Source: Amycolatopsis azurea DSM 43854 (lineage in GTDB: Bacteria > Actinomycetota > Actinomycetes > Mycobacteriales > Pseudonocardiaceae). Taken from it: a stretch of DNA of 64,000 nucleotides. The stretch spans positions 241,307 to 305,306 of the forward strand of contig NZ_MUXN01000011.1 in assembly GCF_001995215.1 (NCBI RefSeq). Direction: 5' to 3'. Shown piece after piece: positions 1 to 8,855 of this stretch. Under the pieces are notes generated by a model. It saw only the letters and a list, made by a program, of their open reading frames with translations, was not told where the DNA came from and ran no database searches. Every line of letters begins with the position of its first letter. Position 1 is the first letter of the stretch. The position numbers and the translations under genes are program-made.

Positions 1-218
1 CTGCCCTTGGCCGCCCGCTCCCAGCCGCCCTTCCAGCGTTCCTGGTCCTCGTAGCGACGCGGATATCCTTGCCCCGGACGGGTTTCCACGTTGTTGAACC
101 ACGCGTACTCGGTACCCGTCCGGTTGGTCCAGGCCTGCTTGCAGGTCACCGAACAGGTGTGGCAGCCGATGCACTTGTCGAGGTTCATCACCATGGCCAG
201 CTGTGCCATGACCCGCAT
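1..218 (-). CDS. narH: Respiratory nitrate reductase beta subunit (N-terminal part)
   Basis: Partial gene that runs off the left edge; only the first ~72 codons are visible. The N-terminus contains an iron-sulfur motif of the form CIGCHTCSVTCKQAW, typical of NarH, the electron-transfer subunit carrying [4Fe-4S] and [3Fe-4S] clusters between NarI and NarG. Its ATG overlaps the narG stop by one base (TGATG), so the two are translationally coupled in the usual narGH order. A good ribosome site (aggagg, near 228-233) lies just upstream inside narG. The family call is confident although the gene is incomplete. Confidence 0.93.
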   Translation of the reverse strand, partial: MRVMAQLAMVMNLDKCIGCHTCSVTCKQAWTNRTGTEYAWFNNVETRPGQGYPRRYEDQERWKGGWERAAKG

Positions 219-3200
219 CAGTAACGCACCTCCTGGGAACGGCGGCGGATCACGGTGACCTCGTCGCGCTGGTTGCCGGTGGGGCCCAGGTAGTTGAACC
301 CGAAGGAAAGCTGGGCGTAGCCGCCGATGAGATGGGTGGGTTTGACCAGCAGCCGGGTCAGCGAGTTGTGCGTGCCGCCGCGTTTGCCTCCTGCCTCGCT
401 GCGCGGCACGTTCACCGTTCGATCCTGGGCGTGGTAAAGGAAAACGGTGCCCGCCGGCATCCGATGGGAGACGATCGCGCGGGCCACCACCACACCGTTG
501 CGGTTCACCGCCTGGATCCAGTCGTTGTCCTTCGCGCCGATGGCTTCGGCGTCGGACGGGCTCATCCAGATGCCCTGCCCGCCGCGGGAGAGCGTGAGCA
601 TGTGCAGGTTGTCCTGGTAGGTCGAATGGATCGACCATTTGCTGTGCGGGGTCAGATAGCGCACGGTGACCTCGGCCGCGTCTCCTGAGCCGCCGGTGAG
701 GTGCTGCGAGCCCAGCGGCGGCCGGTAGACCGGCAGGGCCTCGCCGAGTTCGTGCATCCAGTCGTGGTCGAGGAAGAAGTGCTGACGACCGGTGAGGGTG
801 TGCCACGGTTTGGCGTGTTCGACGTTGATCACGAACGCCGAGTAACGCCGTCCGCCGCTCTCGCTGCCGGACCACTCCGGACTGGTGATCACCGGCGCCG
901 GACGCGACCGGGTGTCGGCGAAGGTGATCTTCTTGCCTTCGTGTTCGGCGGAAAGATGCGCCAGCTCGGTGCCGACCCGTTTCTCGAGTTCGCGGAAGCC
1001 TTGGGTCGCCAGCCGCCCGTTGGTGGTGCCGGACAGGGCGAGCACGGCGTCCGCGGCCTTGATGTCGGTGTCGATCAACGCCTGGCCCTGACCGGCTCCG
1101 GTCGTCGCGACGCCGTTCTTCGCGCGCAGCCAGTTCACTTCCTCGCCGACGTCGTAGGTCAGGCCCTTGCTGGTGGCGCCCAGCTTCTCCAGCAGCGGGC
1201 CGAGCGTGGCCAGTTTCGCCGCCACGGCGGGGTAATCGCGCTCGACGACGGTCAGCTTCGGCATGGTGACGCCCGGAATCGGCTCGACGTCGCCGTCGCG
1301 CCAGTCACGGACGACCCCACCCGGCTGCGCCGTCTCGCTGGGAGTGTCGTGCGTCATCGGGGTGGCGACGAGATCCTTGCGCACGCCGAGATGCCGTTCG
1401 GCGAGTTCGCTGAACCGCTTCGCGATCGTGTGGAAGGCCTCGAAATCGGTGCGGGTCTGCCACGGTGGATCGACGGCGGCGTTGAAGGAATGCACGAAGG
1501 GATGCATGTCCGTCGACGAGAGATCGTGCTTCTCGTACCAGGTCGCGGCGGGCAGCACGAGATCCGCGAACAAGGTGGTGCTGGTCATGCGGTAATCGAT
1601 TGCCAGCATAAGATCCAATTTGCCGGCGGGGGCGGTGTCGTGCCATTTCACGGTTTTCGGCCGCGCGTCCGGCGGCGCCTCTTCGCCGCGCAGGTTCGCG
1701 TCGGTGCCGAGCAGATGGCGCAGGAAGTACTCGTGCCCCTTGGCCGAGGAGCCGAGCAGGTTGGACCGCCACACCGTGAGCACCCGCGGCCAGTTCCCGG
1801 GCGCGTCCGGATCCTCGGCCGCGAACCCCAGCTTGCCTTCGCGTAGTCGTGCGGTGACGTGGCGGACGGGATCGACCCCGGCTTCGTCGGCCTCGTCGAC
1901 CAGGTCGAGCGGATTGCGGTCGAAGGTGGGGAACGACGGCATCCAGCCCAGCCGCGCCGACTGCGCGAGCGTGTCCGCGGCGCTCGTCCCGGCGAGTTTT
2001 CCGGGCGCCAGCGGGGAGGCCAGCTCGTCGTTGCGCAGCGCGTCGTAGCGCCATTGGCCGGTGTGCAGGTACCAGTAGGCGGTCCCGATCATCTGCCGGG
2101 CGGGCCGCATCCAGTCCATCGCGCCGGCCAGGGTCTGGTGCCCGGTCAGCGGCCGCACCTTCTCCTGTCCGACGTAGTGGGCCCAGCCGCCGCCGTTGCG
2201 GCCCTGGCAGCCGGTCATCGTGAGCAACGCGAGGAAGGACCGGTAGATGGTGTCGGAGTGGAACCAGTGGTTGGTTCCCGCGCCCATCAGGATCATGCAG
2301 CGGCCGCGGGAGGCCTCCGCGGTCTCGGCGAACTCCCTGGCGATCCGGGTGACCCGCTCGGCCGGGACCGACGTGATCTCCTGCTGCCACGCCGGGGTGC
2401 ACGGTTCCGCCGGGTCGTCGTAGCCGGACGGCCACCGGCCGGGCAGGTCGCCGCGCCGGACGCCGTACTGCGCCATCAGCAGGTCGAACACGGTGGTGAC
2501 CAGCCGCCCGTCCTGTTCGACGGCGGGCACTCCGCGCCGCAGGACGCCGTCCGCGTCGAAGCGCGGAAGCAGCACCTCGACGCCTTCGTGACCGGGGTCG
2601 GCGAGCAGGCTCAGCCGCGGCACGACGTCGCCGAGTTCGAGGTTCCAGCGGCCCTGGTCGTGTTCGTTCCAGCGGAAGCCGACGGAACCGTTGGGCACGA
2701 CCGGTTCCCCGGTGCGGTCGTCGACCAGGACGGTCTTCCACTGGGTCTCGGCTCCTTCGTCACCGAGGTCGGCGGCGGTGAGGAACTTCGACGGGACGTA
2801 CGCGCCGTCGCGTTCGGTCAGCGTGACCAGGAAGGGGAGATCGGTGAAGCGGCGGACGTAGTCGGTGAAGTACGGCACCTGCCGTTCGGCGAAGAACTCG
2901 CGGAGGATGACGTGCCCCATGGCCATCGCGAGCGCGGCGTCGGTGCCGGGATGCGGGGCCAGCCATTCGTCGGCGAACTTGGTGTTGTCGGCGTAGTCGG
3001 GGGAGACCACGACGACCTTCTGGCCCCGGTACCGTGCCTCGGCCATCCAGTGCGCGTCCGGGGTCCTGGTCACCGGGACGTTCGAGCCCCACATCATCAG
3101 GTACGCGGCGTCCCACCAGTCCGCGGATTCGGGAACGTCGGTCTGGTCGCCGAACACCTGCGGCGAAGCCACCGGCAGATCGGCGTACCAGTCGTAGAAG

Positions 3201-3907
3201 GAGAGCATCGGGGCGCCGATCAGCGCCATGAACCGGGAGCCGATCGCGTGCGAGACCATCGACATCGCCGGAATCGGCGAAAAGCCGGCGACCCGGTCCG
3301 GGCCGTACCGGGAAATGGCGTGCACATGCGCGGCGGCGGCGATTTCCGCTGCCTCGTCCCAGCTGACCCGGACCAATCCGCCTTTTCCGCGGGCGCGCTG
3401 ATAGGCCAGTCTCTTCATCGGGTCGTCCATCACCGAAGCCCAGGCGACGACCGGATCGCCGTACTGTTTCAGCGCCTCCCGGTACATTTCGACCAGTACG
3501 CCTCGCGCATACGGAAAACGTACCCGGGTCGGGGAATAGGAATACCACGAAAAAGAGGCGCCGCGCGGGCATCCGCGCGGTTCGTACTCCGGCTTGTCGG
3601 GGCCGACGGAGGGATAATCCGGATCCTGGCTCTCCCAGGTGATGATCCCGTCGGAGACATACACGTTCCAGCGGCAGGAACCCGTGCAGTTCACGCCGTG
3701 CGTCGATGGGACGACCTTGTCGTGACTCCAGCGATCCCGGTAGAAGGCGTCGCCTTCCCGGCCTCCGGTCAGATGTACCGAGTGCAGATCCGCCGAACTC
3801 TCCGCGCGGGTCAAATAACGGCCGAGGCGCAGCAGGGCGGTGGTCGCCGCGCCTTCGATGTGGTGGTTTTCGACGCCGTTTCCGTTGGCTTTTCGTGGCG
3901 AGCGCAC
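218..3907 (-). CDS. narG: Respiratory nitrate reductase alpha subunit
   Basis: Catalytic molybdenum subunit (1229 aa, full NarG length) of the membrane-bound quinol:nitrate reductase, which reduces nitrate to nitrite on the cytoplasmic face. The FS0 cluster ligands are visible as HGVNCTGSC (His70, Cys74, Cys78) plus Cys113 in the PRGCPRG stretch. The YDWYADLP segment holds the Asp that ligates molybdenum in E. coli NarG. I chose the GTG at 3907 because ggagg lies about 8 nt upstream. It is coupled to narH downstream. The 370-bp upstream gap holds two inverted repeats that could be operators. No twin-arginine signal is seen, as usual for cytoplasmic NarG. Confidence 0.97.
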   Translation of the reverse strand: MRSPRKANGNGVENHHIEGAATTALLRLGRYLTRAESSADLHSVHLTGGREGDAFYRDRWSHDKVVPSTHGVNCTGSCRWNVYVSDGIITWESQDPDYPSVGPDKPEYEPRGCPRGASFSWYSYSPTRVRFPYARGVLVEMYREALKQYGDPVVAWASVMDDPMKRLAYQRARGKGGLVRVSWDEAAEIAAAAHVHAISRYGPDRVAGFSPIPAMSMVSHAIGSRFMALIGAPMLSFYDWYADLPVASPQVFGDQTDVPESADWWDAAYLMMWGSNVPVTRTPDAHWMAEARYRGQKVVVVSPDYADNTKFADEWLAPHPGTDAALAMAMGHVILREFFAERQVPYFTDYVRRFTDLPFLVTLTERDGAYVPSKFLTAADLGDEGAETQWKTVLVDDRTGEPVVPNGSVGFRWNEHDQGRWNLELGDVVPRLSLLADPGHEGVEVLLPRFDADGVLRRGVPAVEQDGRLVTTVFDLLMAQYGVRRGDLPGRWPSGYDDPAEPCTPAWQQEITSVPAERVTRIAREFAETAEASRGRCMILMGAGTNHWFHSDTIYRSFLALLTMTGCQGRNGGGWAHYVGQEKVRPLTGHQTLAGAMDWMRPARQMIGTAYWYLHTGQWRYDALRNDELASPLAPGKLAGTSAADTLAQSARLGWMPSFPTFDRNPLDLVDEADEAGVDPVRHVTARLREGKLGFAAEDPDAPGNWPRVLTVWRSNLLGSSAKGHEYFLRHLLGTDANLRGEEAPPDARPKTVKWHDTAPAGKLDLMLAIDYRMTSTTLFADLVLPAATWYEKHDLSSTDMHPFVHSFNAAVDPPWQTRTDFEAFHTIAKRFSELAERHLGVRKDLVATPMTHDTPSETAQPGGVVRDWRDGDVEPIPGVTMPKLTVVERDYPAVAAKLATLGPLLEKLGATSKGLTYDVGEEVNWLRAKNGVATTGAGQGQALIDTDIKAADAVLALSGTTNGRLATQGFRELEKRVGTELAHLSAEHEGKKITFADTRSRPAPVITSPEWSGSESGGRRYSAFVINVEHAKPWHTLTGRQHFFLDHDWMHELGEALPVYRPPLGSQHLTGGSGDAAEVTVRYLTPHSKWSIHSTYQDNLHMLTLSRGGQGIWMSPSDAEAIGAKDNDWIQAVNRNGVVVARAIVSHRMPAGTVFLYHAQDRTVNVPRSEAGGKRGGTHNSLTRLLVKPTHLIGGYAQLSFGFNYLGPTGNQRDEVTVIRRRSQEVRY

Positions 3908-4571: not shown

Positions 4572-5027
4572 GTGTCCACCGATCAGGCCGCGCCCGCCGG
4601 CCGCGAGGTCGACGTCCTGGCCTTGGACGTGGGCGGCGACCTGGGCGAACTGGCCCGGGTCCGCGCCTGGGCGCGAGCGGAACTGGGCGACGTCACCGAA
4701 GCGGGTCTCACGGACGTGATCCTGGTACTGGACGAACTGGTGTCCAACGCCCTGCGGCACGGTGAGCGGGCCCGGCAGGTGCGCCTGCTGCGGCGGCCCG
4801 GCCGCCTGCGCATCGAGGTCGACGACGCCGGCAGGACGCCCGCGACCCCGCGCCCGCCCTCGGAGACCGGCGGCCGGGGCCTTTCCCTCATCGACGCCTG
4901 CGCCGCGGCGTGGGGCCAGGATCTCCGCGAGGACGGCAAGACCGTGTGGGCGGAACTCGACCTGACCGGTTCAAACGTGTCGGGTGACACAGCGGATCCG
5001 CCGTTTCCGGGGCGCCGCGCCGGGTAA
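4572..5027 (+). CDS. RsbW-like ATP-binding protein (anti-sigma kinase family)
   Basis: 151 aa, a single HATPase_c domain of the RsbW/SpoIIAB type, which inhibits SigB-class sigma factors or phosphorylates STAS proteins in partner switching. Visible motifs are the N-box DELVSNALRH (about residues 55-65), a G1-like VDDAGR, and the G2 box GGRGLSLID. It starts with GTG, with ggagg at 4562-4566. A SigB-type promoter lies upstream and csbD follows 33 bp downstream, so the two probably form one stress transcript. A paralogue with the same fold is at 7884-8294. Which sigma factor it controls cannot be seen. Confidence 0.85.
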   Translation: MSTDQAAPAGREVDVLALDVGGDLGELARVRAWARAELGDVTEAGLTDVILVLDELVSNALRHGERARQVRLLRRPGRLRIEVDDAGRTPATPRPPSETGGRGLSLIDACAAAWGQDLREDGKTVWAELDLTGSNVSGDTADPPFPGRRAG

Positions 5028-5060: not shown

Positions 5061-5237
5061 ATGAACGACAAAACCGAGAACAAGCTCGACGAACTCAAGG
5101 GCAAGGCCAAGGAAGCCGTCGGCAACGCCACGGACAACGAGCAGTGGCAGGCCGAAGGCAAGGCCGAGCAGGGCAAGGCCAACGTCAAGCAGGCGGGCGA
5201 GAAGATCAAGGACGCCGTGAAGGGTGTCCGGGACTGA
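5061..5237 (+). CDS. CsbD family stress protein
   Basis: 58-aa, highly charged, Lys/Glu/Ala-rich protein of the CsbD family (about 60 aa), which is induced by general stress in Gram-positive bacteria and has no known enzymatic role. The repeated GKAKE/GKA pattern and predicted amphipathic helices are typical. I chose the ATG at 5061 over the upstream in-frame ATG at 5049 because the ggagg at 5051-5055 is correctly placed for it. It follows the RsbW-like gene and ends at a strong hairpin terminator. Confidence 0.9.
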   Translation: MNDKTENKLDELKGKAKEAVGNATDNEQWQAEGKAEQGKANVKQAGEKIKDAVKGVRD

Positions 5238-5279: not shown

Positions 5280-6311
5280 CTACTGCGTGAGAGTGTCGCT
5301 CAACCGGGTGTACGCGGTGTCGAGCATCGCCTGCGAACGCGGGAAGTCGCGCAGCTGCCCGCGCAGGAGGTCCAGCGCCGGCAGCAGCGAACCGGCCGGA
5401 ACCTGACGAGCCGTCAGGATCTCCGCGGTCCAGGTCAGGAAGCCGGTGAACAGTTCCTCGTCGCTGACGTACAGCGAAACCGCCAGGTATTCGACGATGT
5501 GGGCGATGTCCTCCGCGGCGTGCTGACGCTGGCGGAGGGTGTACTCGCGCATCGACGGGACGCGGTCTTCCAGGCCCGCCATGACGTTCTTCACCAGCCG
5601 GCTCGAAGTCCGGGAAACGAGGGTGTACTCCTGGTCGGCCAGATGCGGGAGGTCGTCGAGGGGCTGATGCCCGGCCCGGGGACGGGGCAGGGGAGAGGTC
5701 AGGAAATCCGCCGCCGCCCGTGCCTCCGGCGCCCAGGCGTCCGCCCCGAGCAGCCGCGCGTACCGGCCGTCCGGCCCGAACGCCGCGCCGCCCGCGATGA
5801 CCGGGGTCGCGGCCGCCTGGCAGGCCGTGATCGTCGCGTGCGCGGCGGGCAGGCGAGTGGCCAGCGACGCCGACAGCGCCACCGTGTCAGGCCCGGTGCG
5901 GTGCAGATGCGCGACCAGATGCGGCGCGGGCACCTGCGCACCGAGGTAGTCGACGCGGAAGCCGCGTAACTTCAGCACTTCGGCCAGCAGCCGGGCGGGC
6001 ATGGCGTGCCATTCGCCGTCGACGCACGCCACCGCGACGCGGCTTCGGTTCGCTCGCGGCCGGGGGAGCACGTAGCCGAGAGCGGCGAGCACCCGGTCGT
6101 TGATCGCGGTCGCGGCGTGTTCCTGCGCCACGGTGATCCGGTTCGCCGCCCATTCCAGGCCGACCTTGTGCTGCACGCCGCCGATCACGTCCAGCAGCAC
6201 GCTCTCCGCGTCGATACCCGCGCCGAGCGCCGAGACCACGACGTCTCCGGCGGCGTACTCGTCCCCGGCGGTCACCGCCTGCCACAGCTGCTCGAAGTAC
6301 TCGGAGGTCAC
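5280..6311 (-). CDS. Cobalamin-binding regulator with CarH-like photosensor signature
   Basis: 343 aa. Residues ~1-75 form the helical cap seen in methionine synthase/CarH, followed by a Rossmann B12-binding domain (~80-210) and a C-terminal helical region of unknown type. The cap contains W-x9-EH (WAANRITVAQEH) and the B12 domain contains GEWHAMP, an ExH lower-ligand motif. Both are signatures of the AdoCbl light receptor CarH/LitR, but there is no MerR DNA-binding domain. The GTG start overlaps the stop of the SpoIIE phosphatase by 4 nt (GTGA), and ggagg lies upstream. It is the last gene of a STAS, ATPase, phosphatase, B12-protein operon, so it probably feeds a light or B12 signal into partner switching. 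That role is inference. Confidence 0.8.
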   Translation of the reverse strand: MTSEYFEQLWQAVTAGDEYAAGDVVVSALGAGIDAESVLLDVIGGVQHKVGLEWAANRITVAQEHAATAINDRVLAALGYVLPRPRANRSRVAVACVDGEWHAMPARLLAEVLKLRGFRVDYLGAQVPAPHLVAHLHRTGPDTVALSASLATRLPAAHATITACQAAATPVIAGGAAFGPDGRYARLLGADAWAPEARAAADFLTSPLPRPRAGHQPLDDLPHLADQEYTLVSRTSSRLVKNVMAGLEDRVPSMREYTLRQRQHAAEDIAHIVEYLAVSLYVSDEELFTGFLTWTAEILTARQVPAGSLLPALDLLRGQLRDFPRSQAMLDTAYTRLSDTLTQ

Positions 6312-7891
6312 GGGGTCCCAGGCCTCCGCGGGCTCCGCGGCGCGGTGATCACCAGCACCGCCATGTCGTCGTGCGGCCGCGGGCCGACCCACTGCGCGGC
6401 CAGCATCTGCACGTGTTCGGCGACCGCGTCGGCCGCCAGGTCCGCGCATTCGGACAGGGCCGTGTGCAGCCGTTCCTCACCGAACATCTCGTCGCCGAGC
6501 GGGCCGCCCTTGGCTTCCACGATGCCGTCCGTGTACATCAGGCAGCTCTCGCCGGGCGCGAGGAGGACCTCCTCCGTCGACGTCCGGATCTCGGGGAGCA
6601 CGCCGATCAGGTTGCCGCCGGTGTCGACCTCTTCGACGATGCCGTCGGAGCGGACGACCAGCGGCGGCGGATGCCCGGCGCAGGTGACGCGCAGCCGCAC
6701 CGCGTCGCCGTCCCGGCGGGCCGACGCCAGCGCGAGCGTGACGAACCGGCCGTCGTCGCGGCTCACCAGCGACGTGTTCAGCAGGCTGAGCAGCCGATGG
6801 TGGTCTTCGGCCATCGGCAGCAGCGCGCGCAGTGTCGTCCGGATCTTCCCGGTCAGGACGGCGGCGTCGAGCCCCTTCCCGCAGACGTCGCCGAGGACGG
6901 CCAGCGACTCGCCCCCGGCGGTGTCGACGGCGGAATGGACGTCGTAGAAGTCGCCGCCGATCCGGTCCTCGTCCTGCGCGGGCCGGTAGCGCCCGGCGAA
7001 CTCGACGCCACCGAGCTGCTCCAGCCGCGGCGGGAGCAGCTCGCGCATGAGCGTCTCGCTCGTCGACGCCTGGTGGGCGAACATCCGCGCCGCCGAGATC
7101 GCGGCGCCCGCGCGGGCCGCGAACAGCCGCGCGAAGATCTCTTCCTGCTCGGTGAACGCGGCCTGGTCGCCGGTGCGCAGCAGGATCAGCGCCCCGGCGG
7201 GCACACCGTGTCCCGGCAGGGGCGTCACGACGATCGACGTCGCCGGGCCGAAGCCGGCGGGCAGGATCCACGACGGCGCGGTGCCGGGGTCGAGCCAGCG
7301 CGACGGAACCGGCGGGAAACCGCGCAGTGCCTCGTCCAGGCCCGGGAGGTCGGCGGGGTCGATCTTCAGCCTGGACAGGGTCACGGCCTCACCGCGGACG
7401 CACGATGCCGCCGGATGACCGCCCTGGACCGGCGGGGCCAGCACCACCGCTGCCCCGGCCAGGTGCTCGGCCGCCAGCCGCGCGGCGACTTCGATGCAGC
7501 GTTCGACGTTGAGCGAGCTCAGCAGCGCCGCCGAGGCATCGGTGAGGAACGCGACGCGCCGCCGTTCCCGCCGCAGCAGTTCGTGCGCGGCTTCGGCGTC
7601 GCTCTCGTCGGCCAGCCACCAGGTGACGACGCCGTCGTGCGGTACCGGGGACGCGGCCCAGGCACGGTCGCCGACGACACCGCGGACGATCCCGTCCGTG
7701 CGGGCCTCCGCCAGCCAAGCGGGCGTCCCGTGCCGCAGTGGCAGGCCGGGCCGGACCTCGGGGAACATCGCGCGGGCGGCGTCGTTGAGGTCACGCACGA
7801 CGCCGTCGATGTCGACGACCAGGGCGGGTGAGGGCGCCGTCTCCCAGCTTCGCCCGGTCGAGGCCGGAGCGGCGATCACCGGCTCAGTCAT
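6308..7891 (-). CDS. PAS-GAF-SpoIIE (PP2C) serine phosphatase
   Basis: 527 aa. A PAS-like segment (~15-100) is followed by a GAF-like domain (~115-275) and a SpoIIE PP2C domain (~285-515). Metal-binding acidic motifs are all present: GGDFYD, LGDVCGKG, TDGIVEAKG and PHDDMA. Such phosphatases dephosphorylate the Ser of STAS anti-anti-sigma factors and so release sigma factor under stress. The substrate is probably the STAS protein two genes upstream in the same operon (8291-8680). It overlaps the ATPase gene by 8 nt and the B12-binding gene by 4 nt, so the four genes form one coupled unit. No membrane segments are seen. Confidence 0.9.
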   Translation of the reverse strand: MTEPVIAAPASTGRSWETAPSPALVVDIDGVVRDLNDAARAMFPEVRPGLPLRHGTPAWLAEARTDGIVRGVVGDRAWAASPVPHDGVVTWWLADESDAEAAHELLRRERRRVAFLTDASAALLSSLNVERCIEVAARLAAEHLAGAAVVLAPPVQGGHPAASCVRGEAVTLSRLKIDPADLPGLDEALRGFPPVPSRWLDPGTAPSWILPAGFGPATSIVVTPLPGHGVPAGALILLRTGDQAAFTEQEEIFARLFAARAGAAISAARMFAHQASTSETLMRELLPPRLEQLGGVEFAGRYRPAQDEDRIGGDFYDVHSAVDTAGGESLAVLGDVCGKGLDAAVLTGKIRTTLRALLPMAEDHHRLLSLLNTSLVSRDDGRFVTLALASARRDGDAVRLRVTCAGHPPPLVVRSDGIVEEVDTGGNLIGVLPEIRTSTEEVLLAPGESCLMYTDGIVEAKGGPLGDEMFGEERLHTALSECADLAADAVAEHVQMLAAQWVGPRPHDDMAVLVITAPRSPRRPGTP

Positions 7892-8294
7892 CGGCGGTCC
7901 CGAGCTCGAACTCCGCCCACACCGTCTTGCCGTCCGGGCGGGCCGTCTGGCCCCACGCCGTGGTGGACAGGGCGACGAGCGTGAGCCCGTGGCCGCCGGT
8001 GCCGGTCGGCGGACCCGGCCGGGCCGGTGTGGCGGACGCCCCGTCCTCGACCTCGACGCGGAGGCTGTCCCCGGAACGCCGCAACCGGACCAGGTACGGG
8101 GCCCGCGCGTGCCGGAGCGCGTTCGAGCTGAGTTCGTCCACGACCATCACGACGTCCGCGATCGTGTCGGCGGGCAGCCCGCTCAGCGTGGTCCGCGTCC
8201 AGGCGCGCACCTCGGCGAGGCCGTTGAGGCCATCGGCCATGCCGAATTCGCTGATCCGGGTGTCCTGCCGGACCGTGGCGTCGGAAGAGGTCAT
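7884..8294 (-). CDS. RsbW-like ATP-binding protein, operon copy
   Basis: 136 aa HATPase_c protein with N-box DELSSNALRHA and G2 box GTGGHGLTLV. The G1 motif is divergent (VEDGAS). It is of the RsbW/RsbT class and lies between the STAS gene (4-nt overlap) and the SpoIIE phosphatase (8-nt overlap). It probably acts as the kinase of the STAS protein, and as an anti-sigma factor if it also binds a sigma factor. It resembles the 4572-5027 protein in the segments around the N-box and C-terminus (both contain GKTVWAE), which suggests a local duplication. Confidence 0.85.
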   Translation of the reverse strand: MTSSDATVRQDTRISEFGMADGLNGLAEVRAWTRTTLSGLPADTIADVVMVVDELSSNALRHARAPYLVRLRRSGDSLRVEVEDGASATPARPGPPTGTGGHGLTLVALSTTAWGQTARPDGKTVWAEFELGTADD

Positions 8295-8680
8295 GAGCGC
8301 CGGGCCAGTTCGGTGCGCGCGGCTTCGACGGTCGGATGGACCGGCATGAGGTCCTCGAGGCGCAGCAGGGTGACCGGCCGGACGACGGCGTGGACCGAGG
8401 TGGCGATGGCGAACCGGCCGTCACTCTCGCGCAGGCGCTGCGCGAGGCGGAGGAGGACCTGCAAGCAGCTCGAATCGCAGAACCGGACCTCGGTCATGTC
8501 CGCGACGGCCAGCCCGGACGACGGCGGATGCTCTTCGAGCAGTTGACGGAGCTTGGCGGACACGGCGAAATCGAACTCGCCGGTCATCGCGTACACGGTG
8601 ACCTCGTCGGAGTCGTAGGTCTCCAGCGTCCACCCGTCTCCGGAAGAGCGGTGGAGGGGCCGCGCGACATCGGTCGTCAT
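8291..8680 (-). CDS. STAS-domain anti-anti-sigma factor
   Basis: 129-aa single STAS domain. The segment RFCDSSCLQVLL carries the conserved DSS motif with the Ser that partner kinases phosphorylate. I chose the ATG at 8680, which has aggag 5 nt upstream; the adjacent in-frame TTG at 8683 is possible but less well placed. It is the first gene of the coupled operon STAS, ATPase, SpoIIE phosphatase, B12-binding protein. The unphosphorylated form would bind the ATPase and free its sigma factor. The cognate sigma factor is not in this window. Confidence 0.9.
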   Translation of the reverse strand: MTTDVARPLHRSSGDGWTLETYDSDEVTVYAMTGEFDFAVSAKLRQLLEEHPPSSGLAVADMTEVRFCDSSCLQVLLRLAQRLRESDGRFAIATSVHAVVRPVTLLRLEDLMPVHPTVEAARTELARRS

Positions 8681-8795: not shown

Positions 8796-8855
8796 CCGGG
8801 TGGTCGTGAGTGGTAAATGACGTTAGAACGTCATTTACCACTCACGACCACCCGG
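8796..8855. repeat. 29-bp-arm perfect palindrome (element E)
   Basis: Arms 8796-8824 and 8827-8855 are perfectly complementary around a 2-base centre. Each arm contains GTGAGTGGTAAATGACGTT or its complement. It lies between the divergent STAS operon and pentapeptide gene, so it is not at a gene end. Partial relatives of its arms occur near 33793-33813 and 57246-57261. Confidence 0.9.

Follow-up and report, generated by a model that had tools for sequence, protein, structure and literature searches.

A standalone photocobilin coupled to a SpoIIE-type phosphatase in Amycolatopsis azurea: a probable light input to partner switching

We analysed a stretch of 64,000 nucleotides from Amycolatopsis azurea DSM 43854 (contig NZ_MUXN01000011.1, positions 241,307 to 305,306; hereafter the window), in which the gene for a B12-binding protein is the last of a minus-strand operon that also encodes a STAS protein, an RsbW-like ATPase and a SpoIIE-type phosphatase of the protein phosphatase 2C (PP2C) type. 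By homology, the B12-binding protein is a standalone photocobilin with a B12 domain and a bilin-binding globin, and it is predicted to hold both adenosylcobalamin (AdoCbl) and biliverdin. Its gene overlaps the SpoIIE gene, and this arrangement recurs in related loci. The best overall explanation, which we hold to be probable, is that a SpoIIE/RsbU-type partner switch receives its light input through the photocobilin.

The photocobilin and its chromophore residues

The original prediction, made from the window alone, described a CarH-like photosensor with W-x9-EH and GEWH motifs and no MerR DNA-binding domain. Both motifs are in the translation, as W54-x9-E64-H65 and G-E-W-H102 (the CarH-type E/DxH feature being E100-W101-H102). 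A Pfam scan of the protein gave B12-binding_2 and B12-binding alone, with no MerR or helix-turn-helix domain and with the globin region unmatched. The light-switch motifs are therefore as described, but the protein is a photocobilin: a bilin globin at about residues 227-342 had been overlooked, and the known photocobilin structures are matched over the full length.

In a phmmer search of Protein Data Bank (PDB) sequences, the full-length match to SasPcob of Saccharothrix syringae (8J2W/8J2X; PMC10979010) had an E-value of 4.6e-84 and 48% identity, and that to AbPcob (8J2Y), also full-length, had an E-value of 4e-40. Matches to CarH covered the B12 part alone (E-value about 1e-8). Membership in the CarH family was rejected on the absence of the MerR domain, the presence of the extra globin and an NCBIfam CarH score of 52.7 against a cut-off of 400. 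The AlphaFold2 model of the protein (41-row alignment; mean predicted local distance difference test score, pLDDT, 92.4) has the layout of SasPcob, with a four-helix bundle and a Rossmann B12 domain (about residues 7-205) followed by the C-terminal five-helix globin. When this model was used in Foldseek, the dark and light states of SasPcob ranked first, with template modelling (TM) scores of 0.89-0.93.

All the AdoCbl residues checked (W54, E64-H65 and H102) and all the biliverdin residues checked (H131, D268 and W294) are present (Table 1). Biliverdin binding is predicted for the window protein because it keeps D268, the loss of whose counterpart weakens binding in AbPcob. That the protein has the photocobilin fold and chromophore pocket is, in our judgement, close to certain. 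The photocobilin of A. oliviviridis is 93% identical to it; a search of the A. azurea genome for a second photocobilin found none. The genome encodes a heme oxygenase (E-value 2.4e-54) and a PduO-type cobalamin adenosyltransferase (E-value 2e-61), the last-step enzymes for the two chromophores.

Variation in these residues was seen elsewhere. Two SpoIIE-adjoined photocobilins from another family of the order (L105 and L107) keep all the B12 residues, with Ala or Thr in place of the biliverdin Asp and Arg in place of the cross-dimer His; to judge from these residues, they are possibly B12-only versions. On contig 12 of the A. azurea genome, a protein with MerR and B12-type domains (L082, 1117-1992) has AEW in place of the light-switch EH and is perhaps a CarH-like regulator that does not sense light through AdoCbl.

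Coupling of the photocobilin and SpoIIE genes

The minus-strand gene order is STAS, ATPase, SpoIIE and photocobilin, and all neighbouring ends overlap, which bears out the translational coupling claimed earlier. The photocobilin start is likely the GTG at 6311 coupled to SpoIIE, a 389-amino-acid open reading frame from the ATG at 6449 being a run-on.

For comparison, 80 related genome loci were fetched with the window photocobilin as query (56-92% identity). In 79 of them, the photocobilin gene was directly preceded by a SpoIIE gene of the same strand, a count that describes the clade of the window protein, with which most relatives were fetched. The SpoIIE stop and the photocobilin start overlapped by 4 bp in 73 of the 78 loci where this could be measured. 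From the background density in the flanks, a same-strand SpoIIE stop within 100 bp would be expected by chance at about 0.001 per locus; the adjacency is far beyond chance. Among the neighbour types scored, the next most conserved was a STAS gene downstream of the photocobilin (63/80 loci, 57 of them with an overlap of 4 bp).

The rows of the tree span at least eight actinobacterial families: Pseudonocardiaceae, Streptomycetaceae, Mycobacteriaceae, Nocardiaceae, Micromonosporaceae, Nocardioidaceae, Thermomonosporaceae and Streptosporangiaceae. On this tree, the SpoIIE-linkage label requires three changes versus 12.4 in shuffles, with SasPcob and L070 counted as unlinked, SasPcob being so scored without its locus in the data. 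In an independent draw made evenly across the phylum, 33 of 396 genomes had a match to the photocobilin query, and SpoIIE was upstream in all eight close loci (L091-L098) and in the remote L105 and L107. The SpoIIE coupling is real and old.

A fusion of photocobilin and SpoIIE would be direct proof of contact. No clear one was found; the candidates in L029 and L056 appear to arise from frameshifts or from errors in draft sequence. In L115 (1435-3581), a B12 protein without a globin overlaps the PAS-GAF-SpoIIE gene that follows it, in reversed order. This arrangement hints at an independent pairing of B12 protein and phosphatase.

Proposed control of the phosphatase and its output

SasPcob forms a head-to-tail dimer in the dark; illumination with green light, or with red light acting via biliverdin, cleaves the Co-C bond, the adenosyl group leaves, the EH helix moves and a monomer forms (PMC10979010). 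Holo SasPcob, once in its light state, acts in trans to activate a diguanylate cyclase (PMC10979010). By analogy, the AdoCbl-bound window protein would be a head-to-tail dimer in the dark, and light of the same two kinds would break the Co-C bond and release adenosyl, whereupon the E64-H65 helix would move and the dimer come apart. The light state would then alter a contact with the co-translated PAS-GAF-SpoIIE protein, the GAF domain or the linker helix being its likeliest site. In the case of RsbU, a bound partner brings order to a coiled coil in the linker, which dimerises the phosphatase and activates it, and cyclases have been argued to share such linker control with PP2C phosphatases (PMC12143880). 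The altered contact would switch the phosphatase, more likely on than off; once dephosphorylated, the STAS protein would capture the RsbW-like ATPase and thereby release a sigma factor of SigF/SigB type whose gene lies elsewhere. We consider it quite probable that SpoIIE is the photocobilin's partner, and give about even chances to light raising its activity.

Homology, the conserved residues and the conserved coupling of the genes give good support to the idea of an AdoCbl photosensor that contacts a phosphatase without binding DNA, as originally predicted. The idea is not new, since STAS and SpoIIE proteins had already been named, from STRING networks, as potential interaction partners of SasPcob (PMC10979010).

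The other components have the features of a partner switch: a PP2C with intact metal-binding motifs, a STAS protein with a phosphorylatable Ser and a HATPase domain with an N-box (a predicted kinase). From the alignment and an AlphaFold2 model, the SpoIIE protein consists of a PAS-like domain (about residues 20-95), a GAF domain (about 125-240), a long linker helix (248-285) and the phosphatase domain (295-516). Its catalytic motifs GGDFYD, GDVCGKG, YTDG and HDD are intact and essentially invariant among relatives, and its closest PDB entry in both sequence and fold is the RsbU-RsbW protein Rv1364c of Mycobacterium tuberculosis (3KE6). The solved sequences nearest to the STAS protein are an anti-sigma factor antagonist (4QTP) and the anti-sigma-F antagonist RsfB (8IH8). 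The ATPase matched the NCBIfam RsbA_anti_sig domain below its cut-off, and a PDB search with it gave spurious or weak matches only.

The cassette varies on its output side. The downstream STAS of relatives has a conserved DS.GLS at the phosphoacceptor site, and the upstream STAS-ATPase pair is also present in most Amycolatopsis. The window and its closest relatives (L001-L003) form a rearranged variant in which the downstream STAS was lost and the upstream pair kept. This suggests that the upstream STAS now serves as the SpoIIE substrate in this clade.

On the output itself, we lean towards a SigF/SigB-type sigma factor. The SigB-type output of the original prediction finds no sigma gene in the operon and indirect support from a related Streptomyces cluster. 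In S. diastatochromogenes (L032), genes for SpoIIE, photocobilin, STAS, ATPase, STAS and a sigma factor lie on one strand, and the sigma factor scores 300.7 bits on the SigB/SigF/SigG model TIGR02980 (cut-off 234). A. azurea has two SigBFG sigma genes elsewhere in its genome, on contig 12 (198372-199046) and contig 45 (165560-166213), unlinked to the operon. Sigma adjacency as a general rule was rejected, with a sigma gene near five loci only (L032, L043, L045, L057 and L070).

The stress gene csbD, convergent with the photocobilin gene, is preceded by a SigF/SigB-like promoter candidate. It was the sole window match in a strict GTTT-N14-18-GGGTA scan (0.24 expected). Its boxes persist in L001-L003 while the spacer diverges, and the same boxes precede csbD of Nocardia vaccinii (L069). 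Mycobacterial SigF promoters read GGWWT-N16-17-GGGTAY, and one SigF target is reported to have GTTT-N17-GGGTAA (PMC7693655). Before the operon itself, no SigF-like promoter was seen; a TAGATT-like -10 element is shared there with L001-L003. A leftward GTTT-N15-GGGTA motif recurs in most Amycolatopsis loci (L004-L013 and L075) in a matching position, about 4.2 kb upstream of the photocobilin gene, and fronts a gene for an NmrA-like NAD(P)-binding protein where checked (L004 and L075).

Several observations count against a light-driven, sigma-directed switch, in addition to the clade-bound sampling given above. The operon contains no SigB/SigF-type sigma gene, and the sigma gene is contiguous with the cassette in L032 only, a few others lying within 10 kb. 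Genome-wide, the strict promoter motif had 12 matches versus 6 for the reversed control; the enrichment is weak, so that the csbD motif remains a hint. Photocobilins outside the clade (about 30-40% identical) have no adjoining SpoIIE in their 4-kb loci, L105 and L107 excepted, and in L099-L104, L106 and L108-L111 none was found within about 1.5 kb. Because SpoIIE adjoins the photocobilin in the close loci and not in most distant ones, we assign the trait to a single large section of the family. As to the direction of control, SasPcob without biliverdin acted oppositely on the cyclase (PMC10979010).

The photocobilin might control SpoIIE while the STAS protein targets a kinase, a cyclase or a developmental regulator instead of a sigma pathway. 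Actinobacterial STAS/ATPase pairs are numerous and have varied targets, which speaks for this explanation, as do the lack of a sigma gene in the operon and the fluid output side, from which the window clade has lost the otherwise common downstream STAS. We judge it unlikely, given the L032 cassette that adjoins ATPase, STAS and SigBFG sigma genes, the SigF-system proteins RsfB and Rv1364c as nearest solved relatives, and the promoter candidate of the adjoining csbD.

Alternatively, the protein could be chiefly a cobalamin or bilin sensor (of redox, heme or B12 status), with ligand occupancy setting the phosphatase and the light sensitivity of AdoCbl being incidental. The fold binds both ligands, and the SpoIIE-linked L105 and L107 keep their B12 residues while lacking the biliverdin Asp and His. 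In the published photocobilins, the effect depends on whether the protein is apo, AdoCbl-only or holo, and does so in darkness too (PMC10979010). Such a sensor is nevertheless improbable, since the light-responsive residues of the B12 adenosyl pocket and dimer switch (W, EH and the lower His) are almost invariant in the 80 relatives and the biliverdin pocket is intact where the coupling would need it; a purely nutritional cobalamin input is the less likely reading. That photocobilin and SpoIIE are merely separate inputs under a shared promoter, the photocobilin acting on another enzyme such as a diguanylate cyclase, is also improbable: a shared operon does not prove contact, and in vitro a non-cognate diguanylate cyclase did respond in trans to standalone photocobilins (PMC10979010), but no other scored neighbour type equals the conservation of SpoIIE in adjacency, 4-bp overlap and breadth of families.

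Neighbouring features, related systems and meaning

Table 1. Features of the operon and its surroundings in the window. Residue equivalences use the SasPcob numbering of PMC10979010; counts are from the alignment of 80 relatives.
Feature	Position	Strand	Details
Photocobilin gene	5280..6311	-	343 aa, GTG start; Pfam B12-binding_2 and B12-binding
SpoIIE-type PP2C phosphatase gene	6308..7891	-	527 aa; Pfam SpoIIE 1.1e-40
RsbW-like ATPase gene	7884..8294	-	136 aa; Pfam HATPase_c_2 1.2e-10; motifs DELSSNALRHA (N-box) and GGHGLTLV (G2)
STAS anti-sigma-antagonist-like gene	8291..8680	-	Pfam STAS 5.1e-13; FCDSSCLQ at phosphoacceptor site
GTGA overlap, SpoIIE stop and photocobilin start	6308..6311	-	from the sequence
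W54 (SasPcob W61), predicted adenosyl/ribose stacking Trp	6150..6152	-	W in 79/80
E64-H65 (SasPcob E71-H72), predicted dimer-interface light-switch motif	6117..6122	-	kept in 79/80
H102 (SasPcob H108), predicted lower axial Co ligand of the GEWH motif	6006..6008	-	kept in 80/80
H131 (SasPcob H137), predicted contact to the opposite monomer's biliverdin propionate	5919..5921	-	kept in 80/80; Ala in AbPcob
D268 (SasPcob D270), predicted biliverdin anchor	5508..5510	-	kept in 80/80; His in the weak binder AbPcob
W294 (SasPcob W296), predicted biliverdin D-ring/corrin contact	5430..5432	-	kept in 80/80
csbD stress gene, convergent with photocobilin gene	5061..5237	+	Pfam CsbD 8.5e-18
SigF/SigB-like promoter candidate, GTTT-N15-GGGTA(A)	5003..5026	+	motif scan; about 35 bp before csbD start
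Second RsbW-like ATPase gene, convergent to operon	4572..5027	+	Pfam HATPase_c_2 1.1e-10

The second RsbW-like ATPase gene has an equivalent place in the relatives L001 and L003. Between the STAS gene and a divergent plus-strand gene lies a perfect inverted repeat (8796-8855; CCGGGTGGTCGTGAGTGGTAAATGACGTT-AG-AACGTC..., with 29-bp arms and a 2-nt loop); it is not kept in L001-L003, and its half-site has one further copy only in the genome. Near the locus, 218-3907 on the minus strand encodes a large molybdopterin enzyme, likened by eye to the alpha subunit of respiratory nitrate reductase.

Among known systems, SasPcob is the nearest solved relative and senses green and red light (PMC10979010). 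It shares full-length homology, the fold and the residues for both chromophores with the window protein, whose operon differs in fixing the partner by translational coupling and in carrying the RsbW-like ATPase and STAS pair upstream. AbDPcob (8J2Y) is likewise a B12 and globin photosensor, 32% identical to the window protein, but has its output diguanylate cyclase fused to it, and the replacement of D270 by His goes with weak biliverdin binding. CarH/LitR proteins have the same AdoCbl light-switch motifs, unlike the window protein in having the MerR domain and lacking the globin. The B12-binding photoreceptor AerR of Rhodobacter also acts through protein contact and not DNA binding, with the repressor CrtJ as its partner (PMC6199135), whereas the partner proposed here is a PP2C phosphatase. 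Light input to a SigB partner-switching stress pathway is known from YtvA/Lmo0799 (PMC4844311), which in contrast are flavin LOV-STAS proteins of the stressosome that respond to blue light only. The SigF/SigB switches of RsbU/RsbP and Rv1364c have the same plan of sensor, linker and PP2C phosphatase, STAS antagonist and HATPase anti-sigma factor; here the proposed entry point of the signal is a protein of its own, the photocobilin, whose gene comes next in the operon.

What is added here to the published partnership is that many families strictly keep the cassette, with its translational coupling and a conserved biliverdin pocket; further additions are one lineage in which the cassette is joined to a SigB-type sigma gene, a rearranged variant in the window clade, and a concrete named partner. 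When standalone photocobilins were first described, their function was not settled; the coupled phosphatase supplies a specific partner and a readout, STAS dephosphorylation. If the proposal is true, the pair would also be a separable light-controlled PP2C module for optogenetics. The conserved SpoIIE adjacency suggests that light feeds the actinobacterial general stress response. The wider proposition, to which we give an even chance, is that in many actinobacteria the general stress sigma response is governed by a family of green- and red-light receptors using AdoCbl and biliverdin, which act in trans on the linker of a PP2C phosphatase that is dedicated to them and co-translated, and that this is the physiological role of standalone photocobilins. 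Soil actinobacteria would then let green and red light inform their stress programme.

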